Assembly (NCBI GenBank): GCA_947073515.1
Contig: CAMTMC010000029.1
Coordinates: 1 to 36,022 of the forward strand
Origin: an uncultured bacterium
GTDB taxonomy: Bacteria > Bacillota > Clostridia > Oscillospirales > Oscillospiraceae
Direction: 5' to 3'
Length of the DNA: 36,022 bases
In this document: positions 4,028-31,425 of the stretch, in pieces
Layout: every line of letters begins with the position of its first letter
Numbering within the stretch: the first letter of the stretch is position 1
The notes under the pieces: model-generated
What the model saw: only the letters and a program-made list of their open reading frames with translations
Databases searched by the model: none
Told to the model about the DNA's origin: nothing
Translations under genes and position numbers: made by a program

Positions 4028-4029
4028 TA

Positions 4030-17734: not shown

Positions 17735-17767
17735 GTGATACCTCACAATACAGTTGAAACAGTGGGT

Positions 17768-18979
17768 TTACTTGCCCTTAATGATAATTTGATCCCGGGG
17801 GGAGTTGGTCAGGAACTCAAAGCCGGCGTCCGTGACCAGAACGGTGTCGCTGTGGCGGACAGCGCCCAGCTGGACGCTCATGAGCCCGGGCTCCACAGTG
17901 AAGATCATGCCGGGGGCCAGAGCCAGCTTGCTGCCCTTGGTGACCGAGGGGAACTCGTGGCTGGACAGGCCCATGCCGTGGCCGCACCGCCCGGGGAGGA
18001 TATCCCCAAATCCGGCGTCCTGGTATACTTCCATGGCGGCCAGGTACAGATCCTCAAAGACCGCCCCGGGGCGGATCATGGAGAAAATCCGGTCCCGGGC
18101 CCGGAGCATGGCATCATAGGCGCTGGCGCGCTGGCCGTTGACCTGGCCCACCATGACGGTGCGCTCGTTCTCCACGTTGTAGCCGCCTACCCGGGCCCAG
18201 CTCATGGGCATGGTCAGGTCGCCGGGGACGGGCACATAGCTGGTGGGGCAGTCGCAGCCGTAGGTGAGCCGCTCGTTGGACATACACCACACCACCAGGG
18301 AGTCGATGTCGGCGGTCTCGGAGTTGGAGAAACCGGACACCTCGTACTGCTGATACCGCTCCTGCCAGCGCTGGCGCATGGCGTACTGGCCCTCCGTGGC
18401 GGCCTGAGCCTCGCTGGCGCCGCCGTTCAGCGCCTCGATGGCCCGAGTGACCCCCAGATCTACCAGCTCGCCAGAGATCCGGCACATCTGGATCTCGTAG
18501 GGGTCTTTGATGAGCCGCAGATCCATGGCGTCCTGGGAGATGTCCACGCAGGCCCTGACGTTCAGCTTATTCCGGAGGTTTTCCAGGAAGTTCATATTGG
18601 CGTAGTCGCCTTCCACCCCGAGGGTGAGGGGACCGCCGCCCAGCAACTCCCGCATGGCGTCCGCGGCGTCCATCGCCACCGCCTGGGTAGCCCCCCATTT
18701 GCCGTAGCACAGCACTTTATCCACGGCGCCTTCATTGATGGCGTGGTCGTGGCGGATGCTGTGGACCAGCAGGAAGGCGTCATCCCCGGTGATGATGAAA
18801 TAGGGGACATGGCTGATGATGATTGGGTTGAAGTTGCTGAAGTAAAACACATTCTCGGGGCGGGTCATAATAGTGACATCAACGCCCCGGCGGTTCATCG
18901 CCTGCCGCATGCGATGGATTCTCTGCCGCACATAGCCCCGCAGCTCAGGTGTGGAGCGCTTCTCCTCTAACACGTCCAT
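17768..18979 (-). CDS. M24 (pita-bread fold) protein, creatinase-like with degenerate metal site
   Basis: This 403-residue protein has the two-domain architecture of the Xaa-Pro peptidase/creatinase family: an N-terminal creatinase domain (about 20-155), then RLIKDPYEIQMCR and the C-terminal pita-bread fold. GHGMGLSSHEFP (333-344) and FTVEPGL (360-366) are conserved. The five dinuclear-metal ligands of aminopeptidase P (Asp, Asp, His, Glu, Glu) map by eye to Met259, Glu270, His334, Glu363 and Ser377, so three are replaced. NERT (271-274) recalls the LERT motif of creatinases, which use no metal. It is therefore more likely a C-N hydrolase than a metallopeptidase. Start: ATG 18979 with GGAGG five bases upstream; the open frame extends 62 codons further without a good site. 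It heads an operon with the URO-D-like gene. Confidence 0.85.
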   Translation of the reverse strand: MDVLEEKRSTPELRGYVRQRIHRMRQAMNRRGVDVTIMTRPENVFYFSNFNPIIISHVPYFIITGDDAFLLVHSIRHDHAINEGAVDKVLCYGKWGATQAVAMDAADAMRELLGGGPLTLGVEGDYANMNFLENLRNKLNVRACVDISQDAMDLRLIKDPYEIQMCRISGELVDLGVTRAIEALNGGASEAQAATEGQYAMRQRWQERYQQYEVSGFSNSETADIDSLVVWCMSNERLTYGCDCPTSYVPVPGDLTMPMSWARVGGYNVENERTVMVGQVNGQRASAYDAMLRARDRIFSMIRPGAVFEDLYLAAMEVYQDAGFGDILPGRCGHGMGLSSHEFPSVTKGSKLALAPGMIFTVEPGLMSVQLGAVRHSDTVLVTDAGFEFLTNSPRDQIIIKGK

Positions 18980-19037
18980 ATAAACCTCCCTGGTGCCCCA
19001 CGGAGGCAGTCCGCTGGGCAACGCTTGTTTTAATGTA

Positions 19038-19066
19038 CTGATAGGATAAAGATATCCCAGAATCAA
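19038..19066 (-). promoter_or_regulatory. Possible promoter of the M24/URO-D-like operon
   Basis: On the minus strand TTGATT (19061-19066) and TATCAG (19038-19043) are 17 bases apart; each matches four of six consensus bases. The leader would be about 55 bases. The rest of 18980-19255 is AT-rich and shows no gene, apart from a 6-bp GC stem near 19212-19245. Confidence 0.3.
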
Positions 19067-19255
19067 AATCCCGTCTAACAGAAAAACACAGATATAGACA
19101 GTAATTAGATTGTGAAAAGGGGCAATATCCTGAAATATTTGGGATGACCTTGAAATAATGCACAAAAATTGCGGTATAATTTTAGCGAAAACACCGGAAT
19201 GTGTTTGGGGACGGCGGAGGGAAGCGCGCAGCCCCTAGGCCGCCGCGGGATGTTA

Positions 19256-19294
19256 GAACCTGTATCCGGCATTGATGATGATAAATACAGGTTC
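19256..19294 (-). terminator. Hairpin directly after the aldo/keto reductase gene
   Basis: Arms GAACCTGTAT (19256-19265) and ATACAGGTTC (19285-19294) pair perfectly around a 19-base loop, starting one base after the stop codon on the minus strand. There is no T-run, so it may be a weak terminator or a 3' stabilising hairpin. Confidence 0.45.
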
Positions 19295-20443
19295 TTATTT
19301 ACCGAAGATCTGGGCGGCCCGCTCCATGTTCTCCATAATAGGCACGGAGAAGGGGCAGCGCCCCTCGCAGGCCCCGCAGGCCAGGCACTCCCCGGCGTGG
19401 TGGGGCAGGGCGGCGTAGTGTTCCCGCACGGTCTCCGGCACCTGGCCCTGGGCCCTGGCCAGATTGAGGAACTTGGTGACATCCGCCACGCTGATCCCCG
19501 CCGGGCAGGGGGCACAGTGGCCGCAGTACATGCAGTGGCCCTTCCAGCTGATTTTTGGCATGGCGGCGAAGGCGGCGGCGTAGTCCTTCTCGCTGTCCGG
19601 GGCGGTGGCGTAGGCTACGCAGGCCCGCAGCTCCTCCAGGGTGCGGGCCCCGCACATCACCGAGGCCACCCCGGGCCGGGTGAGGGCGTAGTGCAGGCAC
19701 TGGGCGGGGGTGAGGGCTACCCCGGCAGGGGAGTACTGGCTGAGCAGGTCGCCGCCGCCAAAGGCCTTCATCACCGTGATGCCCACTCCCTGGCGCTGGC
19801 AGCTCTCATACAGGGCCTGGCGCTGGGGGTCCATGTTCACCAGGGGTTTCTCATAGGCCGATTCCGCCCACAGCTGTTCCACGTCCTCCCCGGCGGGCTG
19901 GAGGTCGTAGCAGGGGTTGACGCTGAACATGAGCACGTCAATGAGCCCGCTGTCCACCGCCGCCTGGGCCACCTCCGGGTTGTGGCTGGACAGGCCGACA
20001 CAGCCGATGGTCCCGGCGGCCTTCAGCTCCTGGACATAGGCCATGACAGGGCTGTTTTTGACCTGGGTCTCCCAGTCGTCTATGGAGTCCACGTAGTGGA
20101 TCATGCCGATCTCCACAAAGTCGGTGCCCAGCCGGTCCAGCTGGTCCTGGAACCCGGACTTCACCTGGCCGATATCCCGGGTGCGCTGGTACTGGCCGTC
20201 CTGCCAGACGGAGCACAGGTGGGCCTGGAGGGCAAACTTCTCCCTGCGGCCCGCCAGGGCCCGGCCCAGCCGGGAGCGGAACTCCGGGTTGGGGCTGTAC
20301 AGGTCGATGCAGTTGACCCCGGTCTCCTCCATCAGGTCCACAAAATCCTTCACCTGCTCGTAGGGCTTGTCCATAAAGCCCTCGCAGCCGATGCCGATTT
20401 CACTGACCTTTAGGCCGGAGCGGCCCAATGTTCTATAGTTCAT
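19295..20443 (-). CDS. Aldo/keto reductase with C-terminal 4Fe-4S ferredoxin domain
   Basis: This 382-residue protein couples an aldo/keto reductase barrel (1-280) to a ferredoxin-like domain. The start MNYRTLGRSGLKVSEIGIG is family-typical. Two Fe-S motifs are seen: CMYCGHCAPCP near 306-316 and CLACGACEGRCP near 357-368. Of the catalytic tetrad Asp-Tyr-Lys-His, Asp47 and His116 (MIHYVD) are present, but the Tyr and Lys positions appear to be Asn52 and His75 (CIDLYSPNPEF and FALQAHL). Ordinary carbonyl reduction is therefore doubtful; electron transfer or an altered reaction is possible. Start: ATG 20443 with AGGAGG upstream; the frame extends further back without support. It has its own promoter and a structured leader of about 100 bases. 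Confidence 0.88.
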   Translation of the reverse strand: MNYRTLGRSGLKVSEIGIGCEGFMDKPYEQVKDFVDLMEETGVNCIDLYSPNPEFRSRLGRALAGRREKFALQAHLCSVWQDGQYQRTRDIGQVKSGFQDQLDRLGTDFVEIGMIHYVDSIDDWETQVKNSPVMAYVQELKAAGTIGCVGLSSHNPEVAQAAVDSGLIDVLMFSVNPCYDLQPAGEDVEQLWAESAYEKPLVNMDPQRQALYESCQRQGVGITVMKAFGGGDLLSQYSPAGVALTPAQCLHYALTRPGVASVMCGARTLEELRACVAYATAPDSEKDYAAAFAAMPKISWKGHCMYCGHCAPCPAGISVADVTKFLNLARAQGQVPETVREHYAALPHHAGECLACGACEGRCPFSVPIMENMERAAQIFGK

Positions 20444-20578
20444 AGATCTCCTCCTTTGGGCAGGGAGGGGCCGCCCCAGGGGGCGGAGCACCCGTAACCC
20501 TGCAAGAAATTTCCTGGATTCTCCAGGATCGCAGATCATCCCACCATGAATTATCTATAGAATAGGCTGGGAAGTCAA
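20444..20578 (-). promoter_or_regulatory. Promoter and structured leader of the aldo/keto reductase gene
   Basis: On the minus strand -35 TTGACT (20573-20578) and -10 GATAAT (20550-20555) are exactly 17 bases apart, an excellent sigma-A promoter. The leader of about 100 bases can form CCTGG/CCAGG, then a GC-rich CCGCCCC/GGGGCGG hairpin close to the ribosome-binding site, with GCAGGG/CCCTGC enclosing it. I do not recognise a known riboswitch class in it. Confidence 0.65.
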
Positions 20579-20592
20579 GGGAAGATTCATTT

Positions 20593-20661
20593 TTCCGGTT
20601 CTCCCTCCGGGGGGCGGGGGAACCGGATATCAAAACCCTCCCTTTGGGACCCTTCTGGAGA
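20593..20661. repeat. Candidate intergenic repeat, copy B
   Basis: The arms CCGGTTCTCCC and GGGGGAACCGG pair with one wobble. The core GGCGGGGGAACCGGATATCA and the end CCTTCTGGAG closely match copy A at 7293-7392. This copy lies between the divergent promoters of the aldo/keto reductase and sir2 genes. Confidence 0.45.
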
Positions 20662-20690
20662 TTTACACCGGGGAAAATCCGTGGTACACT
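20662..20690 (+). promoter_or_regulatory. Sigma-A promoter of the sir2 gene
   Basis: -35 TTTACA (20662-20667) and -10 TACACT (20685-20690) are 17 bases apart, 28 bases before the sir2 ATG, with AGGAGG in between. Confidence 0.6.
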
Positions 20691-20717
20691 GGAGAAAAAC
20701 AGATAGGAGGACAGGGT

Positions 20718-21443
20718 ATGGAAGAACAGCTCGCTACCTTACAACAGTGGATTGACGACAGCCGTTCCATCGTCTTTTTTGGGGGAGCGGGGGTGTCCAC
20801 CGAGTCGGGGATCAAGGACTTCCGCAGCGTGGACGGCCTGTACAGCCAGCGCTACCGCTGGCCCCCGGAGGAGATTTTAAGCCGCACCTTTTTTGACCGG
20901 GACCCGGAGGAGTTCTACCGCTTTTACCGGGACAAGATGCTCTGCCTGGACGCCCGACCCAATGCCGCCCACCGGAAGCTGGCGGAGCTGGAGGCGGCGG
21001 GGAAGCTACTCGGGGTCATCACCCAGAACATCGACGGACTGCACCAGGCGGCGGGGTCTCAACGGGTGTGGGAGCTCCACGGCTCCGTCCACCGGAATTT
21101 CTGCGTGAAGTGCGGGAAATTCCATCCGGTGGAGTTTGTCCGGGACAGCCAGGGGATCCCAACCTGCTCCTGCGGCGGGACAGTGAAGCCCGACGTGGTC
21201 CTATACGAGGAGGGGCTGGATAGCCGGGTGATCCAGGGGGCGGTGGAGGACTTGCGAAAGGCCGGCCTGCTCATCATCGGGGGCACCTCCCTGGCGGTGT
21301 ACCCGGCGGCGGGGCTGATCGACTACTTCGGCGGGGGACGGATTGTCCTCATCAACAAGACCCCCACCCCCTACGACCGCCGGGCGGACCTGGTAATCCC
21401 GGCGCCCATCGGGGAGGTTTTGGGGCGGATTACGGTGAAATAA
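20718..21443 (+). CDS. NAD-dependent protein deacylase, Sir2 family
   Basis: This sirtuin (241 residues) removes acyl groups from lysines using NAD. The NAD-binding motif [15 protein letters not shown] is at 23-37, TQNIDGLH at 102-109, and the catalytic His121 in ELHG. The zinc is held by Cys129, Cys132, Cys150 and Cys152 (FCVKCG and TCSCGG); the second pair is spaced by one residue rather than two. [13 protein letters not shown] at about 193-205 binds NAD ribose. Length and order are normal for bacterial CobB/Sir2. Start: ATG with AGGAGG eight bases upstream. The next gene follows after 67 bases and may be co-transcribed. Confidence 0.95.
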
Positions 21444-21510
21444 AAAATTTCCAGCCGGATTTTTGGGTGAACGGGCCGGAAACGAACACAATAGACAAGG
21501 AGTTTTGAAC

Positions 21511-21858
21511 ATGTTATTGGTAGAATATCCCAAGTGTACCACCTGCCAGCGGGCAAAGAAGTTCCTGGACAGCCGGGGCGCCGCCTACACCGGCCGGCAC
21601 ATCAAGGAGGAAAACCCCACCGCAGATGAGCTGCGGGCCTGGTGGCAAAAGAGCGGCCTGCCCCTGAAGAAGTTTTTCAACACCTCCGGCCTGGTGTACA
21701 AGGCCATGGAGCTGAAGGACAAGCTGCCCGCCATGACCGAGGAGGAGCAGCTGGCCCTGCTGGCCACCGACGGGATGCTGGTGAAGCGGCCCATCCTGGT
21801 GGGGGAGGATTTCGTGCTGGTGGGCTTTAAAGAGGCGGACTGGTCCGCTAAACTGTAA
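21511..21858 (+). CDS. Spx/ArsC-family (thioredoxin-fold) protein
   Basis: This 115-residue protein matches the ArsC/Spx/MgsR (YffB-like) family. MLLVEYPKCTTCQRAKKFLD carries a CxxC pair at Cys9 and Cys12. It continues with HIKEENPTADELRAWW, FFNTSGLVYK and KRPILVGEDFVLVGF, the usual order for this family. The arsenate-reductase catalytic arginines cannot be assigned with confidence, so a redox-sensing or glutaredoxin-like role is as likely as arsenate reduction. The frame is open 16 codons upstream, but the ATG at 21511 has AAGGAG eight bases before it. A strong terminator follows about 135 bases downstream. Confidence 0.88.
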   Translation: MLLVEYPKCTTCQRAKKFLDSRGAAYTGRHIKEENPTADELRAWWQKSGLPLKKFFNTSGLVYKAMELKDKLPAMTEEEQLALLATDGMLVKRPILVGEDFVLVGFKEADWSAKL

Positions 21859-21993
21859 AATTCCCCAAATTGACTGAGGAAAACCAGGTTTTTTCTGCCA
21901 GCCCATCCACCACCGGGATGCGGCCCGGGGGATTGGAAATGGTGGAAGTCCTCTCCACGGTTGAGACAGCGGTTCCCGGGCTATAATGAGTGG

Positions 21994-22029
21994 GCGGGCG
22001 GCAACGCGCCGCCCGCTTTTTTTGTTTTG
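21994..22029 (+). terminator. Intrinsic terminator between the Spx-like gene and spoIVB
   Basis: A perfect 9-bp stem (21994-22002 with 22008-22016) is followed by seven T and a further T-rich run. It ends the sir2/Spx-like transcript. A TATAAT at 21982-21987, with TTGAGA 15 bases before it, lies just upstream, so a transcript starting there would meet the hairpin at once; that could be a leader attenuator for spoIVB. Confidence 0.8.
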
Positions 22030-22046
22030 ATAAGGGAGGTGGAACA

Positions 22047-23168
22047 GTGGAACAAGAACCAAAACAGAAGATCGGCCCGGGAGTGATGGCGCTGGCGGCG
22101 GGGCTGGCGGCCTGCCTGATGCTGGCCCTGTCTCTGGCTGGGGGCCGGGCCCGGGCGGCGGAGGCCTCCGCCCCGGCGGTGCTGGACGTGCCCCGGCAGG
22201 GGAGCGCCCAGACGGCGGGCAGCCCCGTGGGAACCCAGGTGATCCCCATGGGCAAGGCGGTGGGCATCAAGCTGTTCTCCGACGGCGTGCTGGTGGTGGG
22301 CCTCTCCCCGGTGGAGAGCCAGGAGGGCGAGCGGTATCCCGGCCGGGACTGTGGCCTGAAAACCGGCGATGTGATCACCCACATCAACGGCAGCGAGGTG
22401 GACACCATTGAGCAGGTCCAGTCCCTGGTGGCCCAGGTGGAGGGAGATCCCCTCACCATCCAGGCGGTGCGGGGGCACAAACAGCTTCAGCTCACCACTG
22501 CGGCGGTGGAGAACAGCCAGGGGGTCTATCAGCTGGGGGTGTGGCTCCGGGACTCCATGGCGGGGATCGGCACCATGACCTTCTATGACCCGGCCAGCGG
22601 GGTATTCGGGGCGCTGGGCCACGGCATCAACGACGTGGATACCGCCATGCTCATGCCCCTGGAGTCGGGCAGCATCATGCCCGCCAGCGTGTCTGAGGTA
22701 AAGCGGGGGGCGGACGGCGACCCGGGGGAGCTCCACGGCCAGTTTGACCTGACCCGGGATCTGGGTACCCTGTACGCCAACACAGACCTGGGCATTTTCG
22801 GGCAGATGCCCCAGGACAGCATGGAGATCACCGGCGAACCGGTGCCGGTAGCGGCCCGGGATCAGGTGGCGGTGGGCCCGGCCGCCATTTTGTCCAACAT
22901 CCGTGGGGATCAGGTGGAGGAGTTTGACATTGAAATCACCCACCTGCACCCCCAGGGGGACGGCACCCGGAGCCTGATGATCCGGGTCACGGACCCGGAT
23001 CTGCTGGAGGCCACCGGCGGCATTGTCCAGGGGATGAGCGGCAGCCCCATCCTCCAGAACGGACAGCTGGTGGGGGCGGTGACCCACGTTCTGGTCAACG
23101 ACCCCACCCGGGGCTATGGAATCCTGGCGGAAAGTATGCTCCGTCAGGCCACTGGCGGAGGAAATTAA
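22047..23168 (+). CDS. spoIVB: SpoIVB sporulation signalling serine peptidase
   Basis: SpoIVB is made in the forespore and cleaves the SpoIVFA/SpoIVFB complex to switch on sigma-K in the mother cell. Residues 14-38 form an N-terminal membrane anchor or signal peptide. A PDZ domain follows (about 68-145; DGVLVVGLSPVE, CGLKTGDVITHINGSEV). The S55 protease domain has His192 in GALGHGINDVDT, Ser331 in GIVQGMSGSPILQNG and an Asp at 316 in VTDPD, matching the His-Asp-Ser set of Bacillus SpoIVB. At 373 residues it is slightly shorter than the 425-residue Bacillus protein, mostly in the N-terminus. The start is the GTG at 22047 with GGAGGT six bases upstream. It is followed by spo0A, the order conserved in spore-formers. 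Confidence 0.95.
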   Translation: MEQEPKQKIGPGVMALAAGLAACLMLALSLAGGRARAAEASAPAVLDVPRQGSAQTAGSPVGTQVIPMGKAVGIKLFSDGVLVVGLSPVESQEGERYPGRDCGLKTGDVITHINGSEVDTIEQVQSLVAQVEGDPLTIQAVRGHKQLQLTTAAVENSQGVYQLGVWLRDSMAGIGTMTFYDPASGVFGALGHGINDVDTAMLMPLESGSIMPASVSEVKRGADGDPGELHGQFDLTRDLGTLYANTDLGIFGQMPQDSMEITGEPVPVAARDQVAVGPAAILSNIRGDQVEEFDIEITHLHPQGDGTRSLMIRVTDPDLLEATGGIVQGMSGSPILQNGQLVGAVTHVLVNDPTRGYGILAESMLRQATGGGN

Positions 23169-23177
23169 GGAAAAAAA

Positions 23178-23205
23178 GCAGGCCCGGACGGGCGTCCGGG
23201 CCTGC
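23178..23205. terminator. Strong hairpin after spoIVB
   Basis: A perfect 12-bp stem (23178-23189 with 23194-23205) starts nine bases beyond the spoIVB stop. The A-run lies before it on the plus strand and there is no T-run after it, so as an intrinsic terminator it faces the minus strand. For spoIVB it may act as a 3' stabiliser or weak stop. Confidence 0.55.
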
Positions 23206-23230
23206 GATATATCTACAAATTGTTACATTA

Positions 23231-23392
23231 AAGTCGAATTATGTCGAAATTACAATGTAATATGTCCTAAAAAATCAGAAAAAATATCTTGACATTCTGC
23301 AAAATTATGATAAATTATAGGCGACCGGTCGAAATGATATCTATAAGGGAAGAAATTGGGGATAATTTCTAAAATTTTGATAAATTCGACTT
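23231..23392. promoter_or_regulatory. Cluster of four 0A-box-like sites upstream of spo0A
   Basis: The Spo0A box core is TGTCGAA. Sites on the plus strand: AAGTCGAATT (23231-23240), ATGTCGAAAT (23241-23250, full core match) and GGTCGAAATG (23327-23336). On the minus strand: AAGTCGAATTT (23382-23392). The first two are exactly 10 bp apart, which suits side-by-side binding of a dimer. The third overlaps the 10-bp palindrome CGACCGGTCG (23322-23331). The fourth lies between the -35 and -10 of the proximal promoter, a position that favours repression. Confidence 0.7.
23289..23316 (+). promoter_or_regulatory. Distal spo0A promoter (candidate)
   Basis: A perfect TTGACA (23289-23294) is followed after 16 bases by TAAATT (23311-23316). 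It lies downstream of the tandem 0A boxes and just upstream of the third. Confidence 0.45.
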
Positions 23393-23403
23393 TTTTGTAT
23401 AAT
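23377..23403 (+). promoter_or_regulatory. Proximal spo0A promoter (candidate)
   Basis: A perfect TATAAT (23398-23403) has TTGATA at 23377-23382, 15 bases away, or TTTTGA at 23375-23380 with a 17-base spacer. The leader would be about 17 bases and contain just the AAGGAGG site. The reverse 0A box overlaps the spacer. Confidence 0.5.
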
Positions 23404-23426
23404 ACTGTAAAAAGGAGGTTTTGTTT

Positions 23427-24188
23427 ATGGATATTGTCAAGCGGGTTCTGATTGGAGACAGCGGCGAGGAGTTCCGTGCCGGCTTGGCAGAGGCCTTGTC
23501 AAAGGAGGAGGATCTCCACGTCCTGGCCGCCACCGGGGATGGCGGCGAGCTGGTCCGCCTTGCCCGGGAGCAGGAGCCCGATGTGGTCATCATGGAGCTG
23601 GTGCTGGGCGGCATGGACGGGCTGGAGGTGCTGGACCAGCTTTCCAAGCTGGAACGCAGGCCCAGGGTGCTGGTGGTGTCCAGCTACATCAAGGGCAGCG
23701 TGGTGGATGTGGCCGCCGCCAAGGGAGCGGACTTTTTTATCACAAAACCCTGCCGCCTGTCCACGGTGTGCGAGCGGCTGAGACAGCTGATGTCCCCGGG
23801 CGGGCTGGAGCCGGAGCGGGACAGCGGGCCCAGCCTGGAGTCCCAGGTGACGGCCATTATCCATGAGGTGGGGGTGCCCGCCCACATCAAGGGATACCAG
23901 TATCTGCGGGAAGCCATTCTGGTGGCCGTGGAGGATATGGATGTGATCAACGCGGTGACCAAGGTGCTCTACCCCGAGGTGGCCAAACGTTTTGGCACCA
24001 CGGCCAGCCGGGTGGAGCGGGCCATCCGCCACGCCATTGAGGTGGCTTGGGACCGGGGCGATTTGGAGACACTGCAAAAATATTTTGGCTACACCGTCTC
24101 CAACGCCAAGGGCAAGCCCACCAACAGCGAGTTCATCGCCATGATCGCCGACCGCCTTCAGCTGGAGCGGCGGAGGAGAAGCAAGTAA
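23427..24188 (+). CDS. spo0A: Spo0A sporulation master regulator with Glu in place of the phospho-accepting Asp
   Basis: Spo0A is the response regulator that commits cells to sporulation. The C-terminal effector domain (about 135-253) is fully canonical: [46 protein letters not shown], and [15 protein letters not shown]. The receiver (1-120) is not. Bacillus Spo0A has Asp56 in VLDIIMPHLDG; here the same place reads [11 protein letters not shown], with Glu57 encoded by GAG at 23595-23597. One of the paired acidic residues is Ser12 (IGDSGEE for ADDN), the switch Thr is Ser85, and Lys107 is kept. Glu can mimic phospho-Asp, so the protein may be active without a phosphorelay; this is inference. 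Start: ATG 23427 with AAGGAGG upstream. The position after spoIVB is the conserved spo0A locus. Confidence 0.95.
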
Positions 24189-24194
24189 ACCCTC

Positions 24195-24223
24195 TTGCGC
24201 GCCGGTCCTAAACCTGCTATGAT
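24195..24223 (+). promoter_or_regulatory. Promoter of the TSCPD-domain gene
   Basis: -35 TTGCGC (24195-24200) and -10 TATGAT (24218-24223) are 17 bases apart, beginning seven bases beyond the spo0A stop. The leader to the ATG at 24354 is about 125 bases. It contains ATACACCGG twice (about 24235 and 24283) and several CCGG-based short stems, but I cannot assign it to a known RNA class. Confidence 0.5.
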
Positions 24224-24353
24224 AGAAGCGGCATATACACCGGCCCGGGGGATGGGCTGGCCATGTGCCCTTGATTCAGGATACACCGGTTTTCCGGCGA
24301 AATGTGCCGAACCGGGTCGAACTGCCGGTATCCACGGTGGGAGAGGGGGAAAA

Positions 24354-24599
24354 ATGATGACCATTATGTACCAGCCCCAAGGGGTGTGTTCCAAGGCCTT
24401 TGAGATCCAGGTGGAGGACGGGACCATCCAGTCTGTCCAGATCATGGGGGGCTGCGACGGCAACCTGAAGGGGCTGTCCAGCCTGCTGAGGGGGATGAAG
24501 GTGGAGGAGGCTGTCCAGCGTATGGAGGGCATCCGCTGCGGCGTGAAGCCCACCTCCTGTCCTGACCAGCTGGCCCAGGCCCTGAAGACAGCGCTGTAA
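24354..24599 (+). CDS. Small TSCPD-domain protein (TIGR03905-like)
   Basis: This 81-residue protein has four cysteines at 12, 34, 62 and 69, in the settings GVCSKAFEI, GGCDGNLKG, IRCGV and TSCPDQLAQAL. The last is the TSCPD motif found at the end of class II ribonucleotide reductases and in small stand-alone proteins of anaerobes. The four cysteines could bind a metal or Fe-S cluster. Function is unknown. The frame is open 53 codons upstream but holds no ribosome site; ATG 24354 (or the adjacent ATG 24357) follows GAGAGGGGG. It has its own promoter and a bidirectional terminator after it. Confidence 0.85.
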   Translation: MMTIMYQPQGVCSKAFEIQVEDGTIQSVQIMGGCDGNLKGLSSLLRGMKVEEAVQRMEGIRCGVKPTSCPDQLAQALKTAL

Positions 24600-24630
24600 G
24601 CGCCCCGGGCAGGGGATATAGAGATATGAA

Positions 24631-24672
24631 AAAATGACAGGCGCCGCCCGAAGGGGCAGCGCCTGTCATTTT
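24631..24672. terminator. Bidirectional intrinsic terminator
   Basis: A perfect 14-bp stem (24631-24644 with 24659-24672) begins with AAAA and ends with TTTT, followed by ATTTTTG on the plus strand and a T-run on the minus strand. It ends the TSCPD gene and backs up the terminator of the convergent carboxypeptidase gene. Confidence 0.85.
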
Positions 24673-24684
24673 ATTTTTGATAAA

Positions 24685-24726
24685 GCGCTAGAGTCTGTTT
24701 TAAACCCGTCAAACAGACTCTAGCGC
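24685..24726 (-). terminator. Terminator of the D-Ala-D-Ala carboxypeptidase gene; 16-bp perfect inverted repeat
   Basis: Arms at 24685-24700 and 24711-24726 pair over 16 bp around a 10-base loop. On the minus strand TTTATC follows. The arm motif TAGAGTCTGTTT is long and low in GC compared with its surroundings, so it may also be a dispersed repeat. Confidence 0.7.
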
Positions 24727-24741
24727 CGCTGGGCGGAGCGC

Positions 24742-26103
24742 TCAGCGCCGGGCGCCCCGGTAGTTGCCACGGGAGGAGCCGGCCCCGGTACGGCGGCGTT
24801 TTTTGCGGAACAGGGTCATCCGCAGCAGGACGGCGGCGGACAGCAGCAGGACAGCGGCCAGGGCGATCTGCACGCCGGCCCCCTGGAAGAAGCTGACAAA
24901 CCGCTCCTTTTTATACAACAGGTCAGAGCGCTCCACCGTGGTGACGGCAACCAGATCCAGCACCCCGTAGACCTCCCCCTCGTAGGACAGCTTCATGGTG
25001 CCCAGCACCTGCCCCTCATAGACCGGGGCCTCCACCGGCTGGGGGAAGAGGGTGATCTGCTTCTCAATCGCGTCCAGGTCCATGTCCCGGGGAAGGGTGC
25101 GGGTGATGGAGCCCTGGGGCTTTACGTTGACCTCGTCGGCCTGTCGGGACATGGAGACCGCCACCTTGGCCACCGGCTGGCTGTCCTCGGTGATGGTCAC
25201 CCGGTGGAAGCTCTTGAACCCCCACTTCAGCAGGTTGCTGCTGGACAGCAGCTGGCCCTGCTTCAGGTCGGCCACCCCCGGGACCTCCACCGGGCCGGAG
25301 CCCAGCACCACGGAGATAAGCAGGGTGTCCCCGTCCTCGGCGGCGGCGACCAGGCAGCGGCCGGCCTCGTCGGTGTTGCCGGTCTTGCCGCCGATGCACT
25401 TGTCATACACATAGCCGCTGTAGTTCCAGGTGGAGATCAGGCCGTTGCTGTTGTAGAAGGTCCGCTCCCCGGACAGGTTGGTGGCAGGGACGGTGTGGAC
25501 GGCGGTGCCGATGATGTCCCGGAACAGGTCGTGCTCCAGGGCGGCCTGGAAAATGAGGGCCAGGTCATAGGCAGTGGAGTAGTGATTTTCATTGTGCATC
25601 CCGGCGGTATTGGTGAAGTGGGTACCCTTGCAGCCCAGCTCCCCGGCCCGGCGGTTCATGTGCTCCACAAAGTCCTCAATGGAGCCGTCCACCGCCACGG
25701 CCAGCACGTTGGCCGCGTCCGCATGGGAGGGGAGCAGCAGGCAGTAGAGCAGCTCCTCCACCGTGAGGACCTCCCCCTCTCTGAGATCGGCGACGGCGTA
25801 CCCCTTGCCGGCGGGGATGTCCTGCATCCGTGTGGGCCCGGCGGTGAGGGGGGTGGTGGGGGAGAGCTGGCCGTTTTCCAGGGCCTCCATCACCAGAAGG
25901 GCGGTCATCACCTTGGTGGTGCTGGCGGGCCAGGCCTTGTCGTAGGCGTGGTGGTCGTACAGGACTTCGGAGTAGTTGGCGTCCAGGAGGACGGCGTTGT
26001 TACAGTAGAGCACCGGCTGATCCAGGGCGGCGGCGGGGAGGGGCAGGAGGGAGGCCAGCGTGGCCAGCAGGAGGAAAGTTGAGAGGGCGCGGTATTTTTT
26101 CAT
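24742..26103 (-). CDS. D-alanyl-D-alanine carboxypeptidase (DacF-like, S11 family)
   Basis: This penicillin-binding protein (453 residues) trims the terminal D-Ala of peptidoglycan stem peptides. A signal peptide ends near AAALDQP (residues 24-30). The SxxK motif is Ser61-Thr-Thr-Lys64 in WPASTTKVMTA, and the KTG motif is Lys240-Thr-Gly in IGGKTGNTDEAG. The middle motif, normally SxN (SGN or SAN), reads SHADAAN at 126-132, so the Asn appears replaced by Ala128. The C-terminal part has the beta-rich PBP5_C domain (about 290-385), one membrane helix (about 412-430) and a basic tail rich in Arg and Lys. That topology and the sporulation neighbours suggest DacF. Start: ATG with GGAG nine bases before it. 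Confidence 0.92.
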   Translation of the reverse strand: MKKYRALSTFLLLATLASLLPLPAAALDQPVLYCNNAVLLDANYSEVLYDHHAYDKAWPASTTKVMTALLVMEALENGQLSPTTPLTAGPTRMQDIPAGKGYAVADLREGEVLTVEELLYCLLLPSHADAANVLAVAVDGSIEDFVEHMNRRAGELGCKGTHFTNTAGMHNENHYSTAYDLALIFQAALEHDLFRDIIGTAVHTVPATNLSGERTFYNSNGLISTWNYSGYVYDKCIGGKTGNTDEAGRCLVAAAEDGDTLLISVVLGSGPVEVPGVADLKQGQLLSSSNLLKWGFKSFHRVTITEDSQPVAKVAVSMSRQADEVNVKPQGSITRTLPRDMDLDAIEKQITLFPQPVEAPVYEGQVLGTMKLSYEGEVYGVLDLVAVTTVERSDLLYKKERFVSFFQGAGVQIALAAVLLLSAAVLLRMTLFRKKRRRTGAGSSRGNYRGARR

Positions 26104-26122
26104 AGGAAATTCTCCGTAAGTA

Positions 26123-26131
26123 TGGTATAAT
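26123..26131 (+). promoter_or_regulatory. Extended -10 promoter for the ComEA-like / two-component / GerM operon
   Basis: TGGTATAAT fits the extended -10 pattern TGnTATAAT. No good -35 is present, as is usual for such promoters. It lies about 90 bases before the ComEA-like gene, in the gap divergent from the carboxypeptidase gene. Confidence 0.5.
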
Positions 26132-26219
26132 AAAATGAACTGTATCAGGGCAGGCGGGGGTATGTGGCAGTATTATATCAGACCCCGGCCCAGTCCGCAA
26201 GGGCGGGGAGGGAGAAAAA

Positions 26220-26633
26220 ATGGCGGAAAAAAACGGAGCGGTGATGGGAGCGCTGGCTCTGGGGGCGGCCTTTGTGCTGGTCACAGGGGGCTATTTCCTG
26301 GGCAATCGCCTCACCGGCGGGCCCTGCCAGGTGATTACCCAGCGGCAGGAGGCCCCGGCCGCCCAGCCGGCCGCCCCCTCCTCTAGCCAGAGCCAGGGGG
26401 AGGCCCCGGAGAGCCTGCTCCCAGGGGAGGTCATCGATATCAACACCGCCGGGGAGCTGGACCTCCAGCGCCTGCCCGGCATCGGGGAGAAGCGGGCCCG
26501 GGACATCGTGGCCTATCGAGAGGAACACGGCCCCTTCCAGACCGTAGAGGGGCTGGACGACGTGTCCGGCATCGGCGAGGGGATCTTATCCGGCCTGCGG
26601 GACTATGTGACGGCGGGCCAGAGCGGAGAATAA
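26220..26633 (+). CDS. ComEA-like helix-hairpin-helix protein
   Basis: This 137-residue protein has one N-terminal membrane helix (about 7-28), a Pro/Ala/Ser/Gln-rich linker (40-66), and a helix-hairpin-helix DNA-binding domain (about 70-130). The domain reads VIDINTAGELDLQRLPGIG then KRARDIVAYREEHGPF and VSGIGEGI, the classic ComEA pattern. ComEA binds incoming DNA at the membrane during transformation, but single-gene homologues in clostridia without a visible competence operon may have another DNA-linked role. Start: ATG with GGGAGGG before it. It is 14 bases from the response regulator gene and probably co-transcribed with it. Confidence 0.88.
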   Translation: MAEKNGAVMGALALGAAFVLVTGGYFLGNRLTGGPCQVITQRQEAPAAQPAAPSSSQSQGEAPESLLPGEVIDINTAGELDLQRLPGIGEKRARDIVAYREEHGPFQTVEGLDDVSGIGEGILSGLRDYVTAGQSGE

Positions 26634-26647
26634 GGAGTTTTCATGTT

Positions 26648-27334
26648 ATGGCGAAGATTTTAGTTGTGGACGATGAGCAGGTGCTGGTGAAGGGCATCAA
26701 GTTCAACCTGGAGCACGAGGGATACCAGGTGGAGGTGGGCTATGACGGGGAGCAGGCGGTGGAGCTGGCCCGGGACGGGGGCTTTGACCTGATCCTCCTG
26801 GACCTGATGATGCCCAAGATCGACGGCCTCCAGGCCTGTATGCGGATCCGGGAGTTCTCCAACGTGCCCATCATCATGCTCACCGCCAAGGGGGAGGACG
26901 CCGACAAGCTGATGGGCTTTGAGAGCGGGGCGGACGACTACATCACCAAGCCCTTTAATATCCTGGAGCTGAAGGCCCGGGTGCGGGCCCTGCTGCGCCG
27001 GTCCGGGGCCACGGAGCAGATGCAGGACGGCGGCGCTCTGTCCGCCGGGCACATCCGCCTGGATCCGGGGGAGCGGGCGGCCTGGCGGGACGGGATCCCG
27101 GTGGAGCTCACCGCCAAAGAGTTTGACCTGATGGAGCTGCTGCTCCGGAACCCGGGCCGGGTGTACAGCCGGGAGAACCTGCTGAACGTGGTCTGGGGGT
27201 ATGAGTATATAGGCGACTACCGCACGGTGGATGTCCACGTGCGCCGCCTGCGGGAGAAGCTGGAGCTGGATCCGGCTAACCCGGAGTTTATCCGCACCAA
27301 ATGGGGGGTGGGCTACTACCTGGCCAAGGGGTAG
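26648..27334 (+). CDS. OmpR/PhoB-family response regulator
   Basis: This 228-residue protein has a receiver (1-118) with the acidic pair in VVDDEQ, phospho-acceptor Asp52 in LLDLMMP, Thr in MLTAKG and Lys in ITKPF. A winged-helix domain follows (about 130-226): VELTAKEFDLMELLLRNPG, SRENLLNVVWGYEY, and TVDVHVRRLREKLE. It is of the PhoB/WalR type and is expected to be phosphorylated by the kinase encoded 46 bases downstream. The receiver is fully canonical, unlike that of Spo0A in this window. Start: ATG with AAGGAG nine bases upstream. Confidence 0.95.
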   Translation: MAKILVVDDEQVLVKGIKFNLEHEGYQVEVGYDGEQAVELARDGGFDLILLDLMMPKIDGLQACMRIREFSNVPIIMLTAKGEDADKLMGFESGADDYITKPFNILELKARVRALLRRSGATEQMQDGGALSAGHIRLDPGERAAWRDGIPVELTAKEFDLMELLLRNPGRVYSRENLLNVVWGYEYIGDYRTVDVHVRRLREKLELDPANPEFIRTKWGVGYYLAKG

Positions 27335-27380
27335 GCCAGCCCGCCGGCCCAAGTGATACCATCAAGAAAGGGGAGATTAT

Positions 27381-28865
27381 ATGGCCCAGGAGAGACAAAA
27401 ACAAAATCAGGTCCCCTTCTTCTCCTCCCTCCAGATGAAGTACGCCATGAGCTACCTGGCCATCTTCGCGGTGGTGCTGGTGCTGATGAACACCTACCCC
27501 ATCATCGCCTCCCAGGACCTGGTGTTCACCTCCAAGCGGGATGCCCTGAAGAGCCAGACGGCGGTGATGGCCTCCGCCCTGATGGAGCTGGAGTCCCTGT
27601 CCGCCGACCAGGTGGCCCGGGTGATGAACATGCTGGACAGCATGGGCCTGACCCGGATTCTGGTCACTGACCCCAGCGGGCTGATCCTGTATGACAGCAC
27701 CCGGGATTCCGCCCGGAAGGGGGAGGCCTGGCCCGAGGGGGTGGAGCCGCCGGAGGAGTACCGCTACGCCCTGTACAAGGAGGTGGTGTCCGCCCTGCGG
27801 GGGTACGACGTGTTCCACTCCCAGTACAGGGACGAGGCCTTCACCTCCACCGCCGCCGCCCCCATCGTGTACCGGGGGATGGTCATTGGGGCCATCTACA
27901 TCTTGGAGGTGGACCAGGCCCAGGGGGCGCTGCTCCTCAACCTCCAGCAGAACCTGCGCAGCATCTCCCTGGTGATTGCGGTGGTCACCCTGGCCATGAG
28001 CGCCCTGTTCTCCAAGATACTGGCCGGCCGCATCGCCGCCCTGCTCCGGGCCATCCGCATTGTGGGGGAAGGGGAGTACGGGCACCGCCTCCAGCCCGTG
28101 GGCCGGGACGAGATTGCCCAGCTGGCCGGGGAGTTCAATCACCTCACCGACCGCCTTCAGACGACGGAGGAGGTCCGCCGCCGCTTTGTGTCCGACGCCA
28201 GCCATGAACTGAAAACCCCCCTGGCCTCGATCCGCCTGCTCGCAGACTCCATTCTCCACGGCGGCCAGATAGATCCGGAGATGGTGCGGGACTTTGTCAC
28301 CGATATCGGGTCGGAGGCCGACCGGCTGGCCCGGGTGACCGAGCACCTGTTGGCCCTCACCCGGCTGGACAGCCTGCCCGCCGCCAAAACCGAGCGGGTG
28401 GACGTGTCCCAGGTGACCGGGCGGGCGGTGGCCATGCTCCAGCCGGTGGCGGAGGCCGCCAGCGTCACCATTGAGGAGAGCTTGCGCCCGGGCTGCTTCA
28501 TCCGCTGCACCGCCGACGAGCTGTACCAGGTGTGCTACAACCTGGTGGAGAACGCCATCAAGTATAACTTCGCCGGGGGCAAAGTCTTTGTATCCGTGTA
28601 CCGGGACCGGGATCAGGCGCTGCTGGAGGTGGGGGACACCGGCGTGGGCATCCCGGAGGAGGATCTGCCCAAGGTGTTCAACCGCTTCTACCGGGTGGAC
28701 AAGGCCCGGTCCCGGGCCGCTGGCGGCACCGGCCTGGGGCTGTCCATCGTCCGGGACACGGCGCGCCGGTACGGCGGCTGGGTCACCGCCCGGCCCCGCA
28801 GCCCGGAGGGCAGCGTGTTCACCGCTGGCTTCCCCCTGTACCAGGGAGAGGAGGATAAAGTATGA
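27381..28865 (+). CDS. Membrane histidine kinase (HAMP-containing, PhoR/WalK-like)
   Basis: This sensor kinase (494 residues) has two membrane helices (about 22-43 and 195-216) flanking an extracytoplasmic sensor that looks like a PAS/CACHE fold (RILVTDPSGLILYDS). A HAMP linker follows (217-270). The dimerisation His is His275 in SDASHELKTPLASIR. The ATPase domain has the N-box around Asn391 (NLVENAIKYN), the G1 box DTGVGIP at 419-425 and the G2 box GGTGLGLSIV. It should act on the regulator encoded just upstream. Start: ATG with AAGGGGAG upstream. Its stop overlaps the GerM-like start by four bases (ATGA), so the lipoprotein is translationally coupled to the kinase. Confidence 0.94.
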   Translation: MAQERQKQNQVPFFSSLQMKYAMSYLAIFAVVLVLMNTYPIIASQDLVFTSKRDALKSQTAVMASALMELESLSADQVARVMNMLDSMGLTRILVTDPSGLILYDSTRDSARKGEAWPEGVEPPEEYRYALYKEVVSALRGYDVFHSQYRDEAFTSTAAAPIVYRGMVIGAIYILEVDQAQGALLLNLQQNLRSISLVIAVVTLAMSALFSKILAGRIAALLRAIRIVGEGEYGHRLQPVGRDEIAQLAGEFNHLTDRLQTTEEVRRRFVSDASHELKTPLASIRLLADSILHGGQIDPEMVRDFVTDIGSEADRLARVTEHLLALTRLDSLPAAKTERVDVSQVTGRAVAMLQPVAEAASVTIEESLRPGCFIRCTADELYQVCYNLVENAIKYNFAGGKVFVSVYRDRDQALLEVGDTGVGIPEEDLPKVFNRFYRVDKARSRAAGGTGLGLSIVRDTARRYGGWVTARPRSPEGSVFTAGFPLYQGEEDKV

Positions 28866-29395
28866 GATACCGCCGGCTGATACTGCCGCTGCTGGTTCTG
28901 CTGGCGCTGTGCTGCGCCTGCGCGGGGCAGGAGACAGCCCAGCAGGCGGACTATGTGCTCTATTTCTTGACAAATGAACAGGCCGCTCACGGTCCAGCCT
29001 TGGGCACAGAGCCCTATTCCCCTTTAGAGGGAGACAAAACGGCGGAGGGGGAGGAGCTTCCCGATCCTGGCGCGCTGCTGGAGGCGCTGACAGCGGGGCC
29101 CGTCTCAGAGGAGCTGGTCTCCCCCTTCCCCCGGGGGGTATCCCTGCGGGGCTGGGAGTGGGACGGGGAACAGCCCGGCGTGGTGATCGTGGATCTGTCC
29201 GAGCAGTACGGGGCCCTCACCGACCTGTCCCTTACCCTGGCGGACTACTGTATTGTCCTCACCCTGTCCCAGGTGGAGGGGGTGGAGGGGGTGGAGATCA
29301 CCGCCGGGGGCCACAGCGTCAGCTACCGGGGCCACCAGCTGCTCACCGCCGGGGAGGCGGTGCTGTTCGACGGTTTGGCGGGGGAGGGAGCTTGA
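28862..29395 (+). CDS. GerM-domain (GerMN) lipoprotein
   Basis: This 177-residue protein begins with a lipoprotein-type signal peptide (RRLILPLLVLLALCCACAG); the anchoring Cys is one of 17, 18 and 20. The remainder fits the GerMN domain: DYVLYFLTNEQ, LLEALTAGPVSEELVSPFP, GVVIVDLSEQYG and ADYCIVLTLSQVEGVEGVEI. GerMN domains occur in the spore germination protein GerM and in the lipoprotein LpqB. Coupling to a histidine kinase gene recalls actinobacterial MtrB-LpqB, where the lipoprotein modulates the kinase. That link is inference. The stop codon lies within the -35 box of the next gene's promoter. Confidence 0.82.
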   Translation: MRYRRLILPLLVLLALCCACAGQETAQQADYVLYFLTNEQAAHGPALGTEPYSPLEGDKTAEGEELPDPGALLEALTAGPVSEELVSPFPRGVSLRGWEWDGEQPGVVIVDLSEQYGALTDLSLTLADYCIVLTLSQVEGVEGVEITAGGHSVSYRGHQLLTAGEAVLFDGLAGEGA

Positions 29396-29420
29396 CAAAT
29401 ACGCCGTCTTTTTGTATAGT
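29392..29420 (+). promoter_or_regulatory. Strong sigma-A promoter of the O-acetylhomoserine sulfhydrylase gene
   Basis: -35 TTGACA (29392-29397) and -10 TATAGT (29415-29420) are 17 bases apart. The -35 overlaps the gerM-like stop codon. In the leader of about 79 bases, CCAAGC (about 29424) can pair with GCTTGG (about 29467). I see no SAM or T-box motif. Confidence 0.75.
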
Positions 29421-29505
29421 CAACCAAGCCAGCGCCCAGGGCCGGGGGAGCGCCCCGGGGAAAATCAGCTTGGAAAAGCGGCGCCTGAAGAAAGAAGGAA
29501 TACCT

Positions 29506-30789
29506 ATGAGTGATTACGGCATCAATACCAAATGCGTCCAGGGCGGCTATACCCCCGGCAACGGGGAGCCCCGGCAGATCCCCATCATCCAGTCCACCAC
29601 CTTCAAATACGACACCAGCGAGGACATGGGCAAGCTGTTTGACCTGGAGGCCAGCGGCTACTTCTATACCCGGCTCCAGAACCCCACCAACGACATGGTG
29701 GCCGGCAAGATCCGGGACATGGAGGGGGGGACCGCCGCCATGCTCACCTCCTCCGGCCAGGCGGCCAATTTTTACGCCATTTTCAACATCGCTAACTGCG
29801 GCGACCACGTGGTGGCCTGCTCCACCATCTACGGGGGGACCTACAACCTGTTCCACGTGACCATGGGGAAGATGGGCGTCCAGTTTACCTTTGTAGCCCC
29901 CGACTGCTCCGATGAGGAGCTGGAGGCCGCCTTCCGCCCCAACACCAAGGCCGTCTTTGGCGAGACCATCGCCAACCCCGCCCTCACCGTGCTGGACATT
30001 GAGCGGTTCGCCAAAGCCGCCCATGCCCACGGGGTGCCCCTCATTGTGGACAACACCTTCGCCACCCCGGTGAACTGCCGGCCCTTTGAGTGGGGCTGCG
30101 ACATCGTCACCCACTCCACCACCAAGTACATGGACGGCCACGGGGCCGCCGTGGGCGGCTGTATTGTGGACAGCGGCAGATTTAACTGGCTGGCCCATCC
30201 GGACAAGTTCCCCGGGCTGTGTACCCCGGACGACAGCTACCACGGCGTCACCTACGCGGAGAAGTTCGGCCTGGCCGGGGCCTTCATCACCAAAGCCACC
30301 GCCCAGCTCATGCGGGACTTCGGGTCCATCCAGTCCCCCCAGAACGCCTTCCTGCTGAACCTGGGGCTGGAGAGCCTCCACGTCCGGATGCCCCGTCACT
30401 GTGAGAACGCCCTGGCGGCGGCCAAGTACCTGAAGGGCCACGAGAAGATCCGCTTTGTCACCTACCCCGGCCTGGAGGGGGATAAGTACTACGGCCTGGC
30501 CCAAAAATATATGCCAAACGGCACCTGCGGGGTGGTATCCTTCGGCTTCCAGGGGGGGCGCCAGGCCGCTGAGACCTTCATGAAGAACCTGAGGCTGGCC
30601 GCCATTGAGACCCACGTGGCCGACGCCCGGACCTGCTGCCTCCACCCGGCCTCCGCCACCCACCGGCAGATGAACAACCGGGAGCTGGAGGCCGCCGGCA
30701 TCACCCCGGACCTGGTGCGGCTGTCCTGCGGCATTGAGGATGCCGCCGACCTGATCGCCGACATCGGGCAGGCCCTGGAACAGGTGTGA
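29506..30789 (+). CDS. O-acetylhomoserine sulfhydrylase (PLP enzyme)
   Basis: This 427-residue enzyme joins sulfide and O-acetyl-L-homoserine to homocysteine, the direct-sulfhydrylation route to methionine. GYFYTRLQNPTNDM (51-64) and the PLP phosphate site TSSGQAAN (81-88) are family hallmarks. Asp182 in IVDNTFATP contacts the PLP ring, and Lys207 in THSTTKYMDGHG forms the Schiff base. The insertion after the lysine (DSGRFNWL) and the length mark the MetY/OAH group rather than the shorter MetB/MetC enzymes. The frame extends far upstream, but ATG 29506 follows a promoter and AAGAAGG. Sulfide released by the CyuA-like enzyme could feed it, a metabolic link rather than an operon link. Confidence 0.95.
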   Translation: MSDYGINTKCVQGGYTPGNGEPRQIPIIQSTTFKYDTSEDMGKLFDLEASGYFYTRLQNPTNDMVAGKIRDMEGGTAAMLTSSGQAANFYAIFNIANCGDHVVACSTIYGGTYNLFHVTMGKMGVQFTFVAPDCSDEELEAAFRPNTKAVFGETIANPALTVLDIERFAKAAHAHGVPLIVDNTFATPVNCRPFEWGCDIVTHSTTKYMDGHGAAVGGCIVDSGRFNWLAHPDKFPGLCTPDDSYHGVTYAEKFGLAGAFITKATAQLMRDFGSIQSPQNAFLLNLGLESLHVRMPRHCENALAAAKYLKGHEKIRFVTYPGLEGDKYYGLAQKYMPNGTCGVVSFGFQGGRQAAETFMKNLRLAAIETHVADARTCCLHPASATHRQMNNRELEAAGITPDLVRLSCGIEDAADLIADIGQALEQV

Positions 30790-30863
30790 TCCAGAGGCCA
30801 GCGACAAAAATGGACGGGGGGGGCGGCCCGAGAACCGGCTGTCCGCCCGGGAGAGGAATCAAT

Positions 30864-31256
30864 ATGAAAAACAATGCGGGAACGATTTTGATGTACAACT
30901 GCTCCGGCCCGGAGTTCTCCAAGCTGCGGCAGATCTTCGCCATGCTCCGCCTGCGGATGCGGGTGGTGGAGCCCGACCGGTACCACGTCCCTCTGGCGGA
31001 GTTGGAGAAGGGGATGGGGGAGCCCGGTGAGGCACAGGAGCCCCTGCCGGAGTCTATGCTGGTCTTCTGCGGCTTGGGGGATCTGCTGCTCAACCGGGTG
31101 CTGGAGGTGATCCGGGTGGCCCAGCTGCCGCCCGTCGGGATGAAGGCGGTGCTCACCGCCAACAACCGGGAGTGGAACACCCGGGAGCTCTATGAGGAGC
31201 TGCTCCGGGAGCGGGAGGAGATCGCCGCCCAGAGGGCCCAGGGCGAAAAGAAGTAA
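30864..31256 (+). CDS. DUF3783 domain protein
   Basis: This 130-residue protein begins MKNNAGTILMYNCSGPEFSKL and continues RQIFAMLRLRMRVVEPDRY. Near the middle are SMLVFCGLGDLLLNRVLEVI and PVGMKAVLTANNREWN, followed by a charged helix (YEELLREREEIAAQR). That order fits DUF3783, a short clostridial family of unknown function. It starts 74 bases after the sulfhydrylase stop with GAGAGG upstream and may share its transcript. No catalytic residues or membrane segment are visible. Confidence 0.75.
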   Translation: MKNNAGTILMYNCSGPEFSKLRQIFAMLRLRMRVVEPDRYHVPLAELEKGMGEPGEAQEPLPESMLVFCGLGDLLLNRVLEVIRVAQLPPVGMKAVLTANNREWNTRELYEELLREREEIAAQRAQGEKK

Positions 31257-31272
31257 ATCGGGAAAATCCTTA

Positions 31273-31301
31273 TTGACAAATCCTCCCGGCCACGGTATAA
31301 T
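31273..31301 (+). promoter_or_regulatory. Consensus sigma-A promoter of tRNA-Leu
   Basis: TTGACA (31273-31278) and TATAAT (31296-31301) are both perfect and 17 bases apart. The short leader forms an 8-bp hairpin (31307-31314 with 31319-31326) immediately before the tRNA. Confidence 0.9.
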
Positions 31302-31330
31302 AACGAAGCGGTTTGAGAAAACCGCTCTTT

Positions 31331-31417: not shown

Positions 31418-31425
31418 ACTTGAAC

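Follow-up and report, generated by a model that had tools for sequence, protein, structure and literature searches.

A degenerate phosphorylation pocket in the sporulation regulator Spo0A, seen across nearly all of a family of gut bacteria

Introduction

According to a review (PMC11210211), all endospore formers start sporulation via Spo0A, which becomes active once one of its aspartates, a conserved one, is phosphorylated. In the stretch of DNA analysed here—36,022 nucleotides from an uncultured member of the Oscillospiraceae, referred to below as the window—the spo0A gene encodes Glu at position 57, where the phospho-accepting Asp is expected. The locus raises the question of whether the product is a genuine Spo0A, how far the change extends beyond one genome, and how such a regulator might be controlled. 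Our literature search, whose scope took in few subscription journals and hardly any preprints, found no description of this pocket loss in Spo0A.

Genomes and trees

The window belongs to an incomplete genome bin (G000; 2.38 Mb, 94%). Spo0A was counted in 58 of 61 genomes of the genus, in 104 other genomes of the family, and in 63 and 50 genomes from the order and class outside it. The family set comprised 128 genomes with a match, three of them in the genus; of the 125 outside the genus, 104 entered the counts, and the remaining 21 consist of eight genomes examined later and 13 that stand outside the counts. Beyond the family, the counts cover 63 of the 65 order genomes and 50 of the 54 class genomes with a match. 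Second copies (L061, L065, L066, L067, L068, L246, L251 and L252) were excluded from the counts, and L061, L066, L067 and L068 were excluded from the trees. A quick tree was built from 279 rows with the pocket columns left out, on which changes are single best reconstructions, together with a careful tree of 68 rows, in which the long rows L063 and L094 join in what may be a false grouping.

Results and discussion

The window encodes a Spo0A orthologue

The window protein is a true Spo0A, orthologous to its namesakes. It matches TIGR02875, the NCBIfam equivalog for Spo0A, over its full length (276.1 bits, the curated cut-off being 200), and its Pfam domains are Response_reg (PF00072) and Spo0A_C. 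SpoIVB is encoded directly upstream, as at the conserved spoIVB-adjacent locus (Table 1). Within approximately 1.5 kb upstream of spo0A, spoIVB was found in 20 of 55 genus loci with enough flanking sequence and in 37 of 103 family loci; one locus among those scanned for spoIVB has a gene inserted between the two. In L068 (5634-6761, the C26/G041 locus discussed below), a RelA_SpoT-domain gene lies between spoIVB and spo0A on the strand opposite to both. The DNA-binding domain, which an earlier note on this DNA had called perfectly conserved, is better described as strongly conserved, with 73 of 114 residues identical to a solved domain chain; the receiver shares 33 of 116 residues with the reference chain.

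Table 1. Features of the spo0A locus, in positions of the window
Feature	Position	Strand	Basis or remark
spoIVB, upstream neighbour of spo0A	21990..23168	+	TIGR02860, 372.6 bits against a cut-off of 305.25; Peptidase_S55
Spo0A-box-like TGTCGAA upstream of spo0A	23242..23248	+	Recurrence upstream of spo0A
Sigma-A-type promoter-like element	23289..23318	+	TTGACA, 17 bases, TAAATT; similar blocks in congeners
CCGGTCGAAATG element directly after the -10	23325..23336	+	By eye
spo0A	23427..24188	+	253 aa plus stop; ATG at 23427
Receiver domain, degenerate phosphorylation pocket	23442..23792	+	Residues 6-122; Pfam, alignment, AlphaFold model
Asp11 (DD1), kept	23457..23459	+	Asp in 158/162 family and genus sequences
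Ser12 at DD2, acid lost	23460..23462	+	Acidic in 0/162 family, 43/50 class
Glu57 (GAG) at the phospho-acceptor position	23595..23597	+	Codon read
Gly61 at D+4, Pro usual	23607..23609	+	Pro in 0/58 genus, 42/104 family, 49/50 class
Ser85, switch Ser/Thr position	23679..23681	+	Ser in 58/58 genus, 45/50 class
Lys107, kept	23745..23747	+	Lys in 160/162
Cys109 (K+2), family-specific	23751..23753	+	Cys in 148/162 family, 7/113 outside
Spo0A_C DNA-binding domain	23847..24158	+	Pfam match

The receiver keeps its fold and loses part of its pocket

The AlphaFold model of the receiver is confident over residues 1-120 (block-mean pLDDT 84-98), with five strands and their helices in receiver order—the (beta-alpha)5 fold expected of a pseudo-receiver. 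A canonical phospho-receiver carries DD1, DD2, D, T/S and K together; the window protein has Ser at DD2, where canonical receivers make direct contact with the metal (PMC12632262), and Glu at D. A PF00072 domain that misses at least one of these five residues is defined as a pseudo-receiver in that review, and by Pfam match and residue reading the window receiver is one. With Glu as residue 57, activation through phosphorylation of the conserved Asp, as described for Spo0A, would not be open to it.

Codon and residue reading bore out what the earlier note had reported on Glu57 at the conserved locus, on Ser12 in the acidic pair and on Leu60-Gly61 (D+3, D+4) in place of Met-Pro. Ser85 at the switch position was also read correctly, but it is not the unusual feature it had been taken for, being common in the class outgroups as well (Table 1). 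The aromatic residue of the Y-T coupling (K-3) is retained. A sequencing error at codon 57 is unlikely, because Glu57 recurs in 42 of 58 congeners, including all three single-contig genomes (G007, G011 and G012), each of which has one strong Spo0A match. On this evidence, which is that of sequences, we consider it probable that Spo0A operates here as a pseudo-receiver protein, working without Asp phosphorylation, with its output governed mainly by amount and the acid at residue 57 in a structural role.

An Asp57 copy in the same bin

The earlier note had named a second, Asp-containing spo0A elsewhere in the genome as the finding that would speak against it, and such a gene is indeed present in the bin. 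Matches to the Spo0A_C profile fall in five places. One is the window, and another is a full-length gene on contig C26, which has Asp57; the other three are small proteins on contigs C9 and C28, in which the profile search found no match to a receiver model. The small proteins (L003, L004 and L005) are Spo0A_C-only products of 111-155 aa, and both of those on C28 have an HTH_3 ORF just upstream.

We rejected the C26 gene as a second copy belonging to G000; it is most likely cross-binned contamination from the sister species G041. This assignment follows from the near-complete identity of C26 to G041 contig C24 (99.967% over the first 9148 bases of C26 and 100% over a separate 6000-base piece), from the repetition of the arsC-spoIVB-spo0A block on C26, from the homologues of the 6000-base piece that G000 holds elsewhere (71-83% over longer matches), and from the composition of the window, which is nearer G000 (0.103 versus 0.24). 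The composition of C26 is mixed, positions 1-12000 being nearer G041 and positions 16001-36000 nearer the G000 mean, and a recent transfer of the whole C26 stretch into G000 may be an alternative. No Asp57 copy that we would credit to G000 was thus found in the bin, although its incompleteness (94%) and the G000-like part of C26 count against the reading that we favour. For later users of the bin, C26 (loci L001, L068 and L320) would mislead a search for paralogues.

Elsewhere in G000 there are 31 other receiver matches, and in 12 of them the full pocket was read: ten have all five residues intact, one has a Lys-to-Arg change and one is degenerate. Because ten of these 12 fully read receivers keep the five residues, the loss seen in Spo0A is not genome-wide, and a general loss of phosphosignalling, considered as a candidate, is unsupported. 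Several hybrid kinases are encoded in G000 and could in principle act on Spo0A, but among the kinase loci listed none was assignable as a Spo0A kinase. A 349-aa protein at L351 (904-1953) has HATPase_c, a HisKA match being absent at E 0.001; no receiver match is listed on its contig, C3, and the protein is possibly an orphan regulator.

Pocket loss extends to nearly the whole family

The earlier note had described a lineage-specific change, which is real, but the lineage is much larger than supposed: judged from the aligned sequences, pocket loss is nearly family-wide rather than an oddity of a single genome. Named relatives include Lawsonibacter, Flavonifractor, Pseudoflavonifractor, Oscillibacter and Dysosmobacter, which would make the genus Lawsonibacter-like within the Oscillospiraceae. 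Glu57 is present in the named isolates Flavonifractor sp. An100 and bacterium CCNA10, and Flavonifractor is able to form ethanol-resistant spores (PMC7801112). All five catalytic residues are present in none of the 58 genus and none of the 104 other family sequences, in 18 of 63 from the order and in 41 of 50 from the class. An acid at DD2 occurs in 0/162 family sequences, against 34/63 in the order and 43/50 in the class, and 120 of the 162 family sequences have lost proline at D+4. Residue 57 is Asp in 16 and Glu in 42 of the 58 genus sequences; outside the genus, the 104 family sequences have 92 Asp, 11 Glu and one Gly, which brings the family to 108 Asp, 53 Glu and one Gly, or an acid in 161 of 162.

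Among the eight family genomes examined later, DD2 is non-acidic in the best copy of seven. In the eighth, G190, the sole Spo0A is canonical and lies beside an integrase gene; G062 and G167 each have a canonical second Spo0A besides a degenerate copy. These canonical proteins (L425 1474-2241 in G190, L429 in G167 and L430 in G062) have the five residues intact at 33-37% identity. The G190 protein, at 243 bits, is above the Spo0A cut-off and is flanked by a phage-type integrase and a PAS-HisKA kinase, an arrangement that looks as if the gene were mobile-element cargo with its own kinase.

Two further observations concern the same region of the protein. Pocket erosion is also seen beyond the family: among the 63 order sequences, 11 have Asn at residue 57, another 11 have Glu, two have Ser and one has Gly. 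In addition, an inserted residue (TGGMDG) lengthens the loop that follows the phospho-site in 15 genus sequences (11 with Asp57 and four with Glu57; L014, L020 and L030 are examples), the C26 copy being one of the 15.

The predominance of Asp57 outside the genus brings up a different explanation, namely that Asp57 members are still weakly phosphorylated by orphan or hybrid kinases and that the Glu57 species are secondary losses. Besides Asp57 in 92 of the 104 sequences, Asp11 is kept in 100, Ser or Thr at the switch in 101 and Lys in 103, and hybrid kinases are present in G000. Because changes at the DD positions need not abolish phosphorylation, and inefficient phosphorylation is allowed with altered DD residues (PMC12632262), Asp57 family members may still be weakly phosphorylated. 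However, the DD2 acid is gone from every one of the 162 family sequences and the D+4 proline from most, swaps to Glu are repeated, and a return to Asp took place without the DD2 acid returning (see below). Taken together, we regard this explanation as unlikely.

Asp and Glu interchange after loss of the metal-binding acid

As the earlier note had suggested, receivers were aligned and residue 57 and the acidic pair were mapped on trees, which place the loss of the DD2 acid at the base of the family and reveal an interchange of Asp and Glu at residue 57. On the 279-row quick tree, the DD2 acid was lost approximately 17 times, and one of these losses lies at the base of a clade that holds 165 of 166 family rows together with four outsiders, with no regain; on the same tree, residue 57 changed from Asp to Glu approximately 18 times and from Glu to Asp approximately five times. 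On the careful 68-row tree, residue 57 must have switched between Asp and Glu four times or more to fit the well-supported branches, and ten Asp57 species form a clade (99/97 support) nested inside Glu57 lineages, all ten with Thr at DD2 and with Cys109. The metal-binding acid thus appears to have gone first, family-wide, with Asp and Glu being swapped afterwards.

This history bears on the proposal of the earlier note that Glu57 is a phosphomimic, here in the form of a residue that locks Spo0A active. Several response regulators are activated by an Asp-to-Glu change, and in aspartate-less receivers it is Glu that most often takes the place of Asp (PMC4395418, PMC12632262); in the genus Ser85, Lys107 and the aromatic at K-3 are kept (58, 57 and 58 of 58, respectively); nevertheless, for Spo0A it is stated that Asp-to-Glu by itself does not suffice (PMC4395418). 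Moreover, a permanent on-switch would not predict that residue 57 goes back and forth between Asp and Glu within the family, ten species having made a well-supported return to Asp, nor that Asp57 congeners as a group retain the same kind of box before spo0A; these observations, alongside the earlier loss of the DD2 acid, weaken the proposal, and we judge it unlikely. The finding on Asp-to-Glu in Spo0A reportedly goes back to Green 1991.

Selection, sporulation markers and the spo0A promoter

Receiver dN/dS is 0.009-0.161 in seven of the eight pairs with receiver dS below 0.5 (0.371 in the eighth), reaches 0.66 among the 25 lowest-dS pairs, and has a median of 0.31 and a maximum of 0.75 over 792 pairs, many of which are near saturation. 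In most close pairs, the receiver is therefore under purifying selection. Relative to the DNA-binding domain (median dN/dS of 0.085 against 0.31), the receiver evolves faster.

Such a rate difference could also be expected of a receiver decaying as sporulation is lost, and three congeners (G013, G024 and G056) lack a full spo0A match, although their bins are 81-87% complete. Against decay stand the low dN/dS of most close pairs, the near-universal Asp11, Lys107 and Cys109, and the retention of Spo0A boxes and of sporulation genes. Of the 61 genus genomes, 58 have a SpoIVA match (53 above the cut-off) and 54 a SASP match; in near-complete genus genomes the figures are 31/31 and 30/31, and across the family SpoIVA was matched in 125 of 150 genomes, 120 of them above the cut-off. 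We consider decay very improbable, and still think it probable that Spo0A is a pseudo-receiver protein here, independent of Asp phosphorylation.

Upstream of spo0A, the window has the motif TGTCGAA (Table 1). We take this motif to be the core of the Spo0A box. Across the whole window it is no commoner than chance (two found, 2.13 expected), whereas 38 of 57 genus sequences have it within 300 bases upstream of spo0A, where single-base shuffles give an expectation of 1.9. Within the genus, this holds for Glu57 (30 of 41 versus 1.4 expected) and for Asp57 sequences (8 of 16 versus 0.6); outside the genus the motif is likewise enriched before spo0A, with 60 of 104 other family sequences, 26 of 63 from the order and 17 of 49 from the class having it. 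The promoter-like element in Table 1 was read by eye in an alignment of 22 genus sequences, and GGTCGAAATG-like blocks, likewise seen by eye, recur after the promoter-like block in congeners. Because Spo0A-box motifs before spo0A are retained, the earlier note's idea that Spo0A is controlled by amount, without phosphorylation, is plausible, though its final step is one that we infer.

A possible mechanism and the place of Cys109

By its sequence, the receiver of this Spo0A orthologue has become a pseudo-receiver, with the DD2 ligand, Asp57 and the D+4 proline gone. In the mechanism that we propose, phosphotransfer to Asp57 would no longer switch the protein. The acid at residue 57, whether Asp or Glu, may act together with Asp11 and Lys107 in a structural, charge-based role that leaves the receiver able to support dimerisation and DNA binding with no phosphate attached. 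Judging from the promoter motifs, Spo0A output would then be set mainly by the quantity made, from a promoter that carries Spo0A boxes and is under Spo0A's own control, and a partner, a ligand or Cys109 may provide an added input.

Cys109 lies two residues past the active-site Lys, just after beta5. The K+2 position biases receiver conformation, with Phe shifting CheY towards the inactive state (PMC12632262); Cys109 could accordingly bias the receiver allosterically or provide a thiol input. The tree offers too few independent cases to tie either Cys109 or Glu57 to the loss of DD2. A stronger version—that the family exchanged the phospho-switch for another input, the metal site being dismantled and the near-universal Cys109 acting as a thiol (redox or oxygen) switch or as part of an allosteric ligand sensor—strikes us as quite unlikely, and we regard Cys109 as a mark of the family and a possible new input to the pseudo-receiver Spo0A favoured above.

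In a gut-bacterial family that includes named isolates, the phospho-chemistry of Spo0A thus looks dismantled while the examined spore markers persist, which makes the family a natural test of how a phospho-switch gets replaced. Research on pseudo-receivers gains an example whose output and DNA site are defined, and the presence of spo0A in metagenomes does not, on its own, imply control by phosphorylation.

Comparison with known systems

Compared with canonical Spo0A of Bacillus subtilis and Clostridioides difficile, the window form is alike in its two-domain layout, equivalog match, DNA-binding domain, spoIVB neighbour and upstream Spo0A-box motif, and differs in being without the DD2 acid, Asp57 and the D+4 proline and in having Cys at K+2; unlike the canonical protein, it is not known to be phosphorylated. 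With pseudo-receivers and aspartate-less receivers it shares a receiver fold without the catalytic residues; in these, DD2 is lost more often than DD1, Glu is the commonest residue at D and the D+4 proline is rarer (PMC12632262, PMC4395418). Unlike other pseudo-receivers, the present one belongs to a master sporulation regulator, is found nearly family-wide and keeps the other four positions tightly (Asp or Glu at residue 57). The words Spo0A and sporulation are absent from the main text of the pseudo-receiver review (PMC12632262).

Several atypical regulators offer parallels. GlnR and RamR, two actinobacterial atypical response regulators, are related to Spo0A solely through the receiver fold. 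Their output domains and the bacteria that carry them differ from those of Spo0A. In both, the D-position residue has its importance in dimer formation and not in phosphorylation (PMC12632262). Theirs is the mechanism nearest to the one proposed here. BldM and WhiI have roles in the spore development of Streptomyces, which is not an endospore former, and their DNA-binding domain differs from that of Spo0A. BldM acts without phosphorylation, and WhiI acts by partnering BldM (PMC12632262). Finally, RitR, the redox-sensing pseudo-receiver of pneumococcus, has a functional cysteine and provides a model for Cys109 (PMC12632262; see also PMC5965902); the RitR cysteine is a linker residue that reportedly acts, whereas Cys109 of Spo0A lies just after beta5 and is a candidate.
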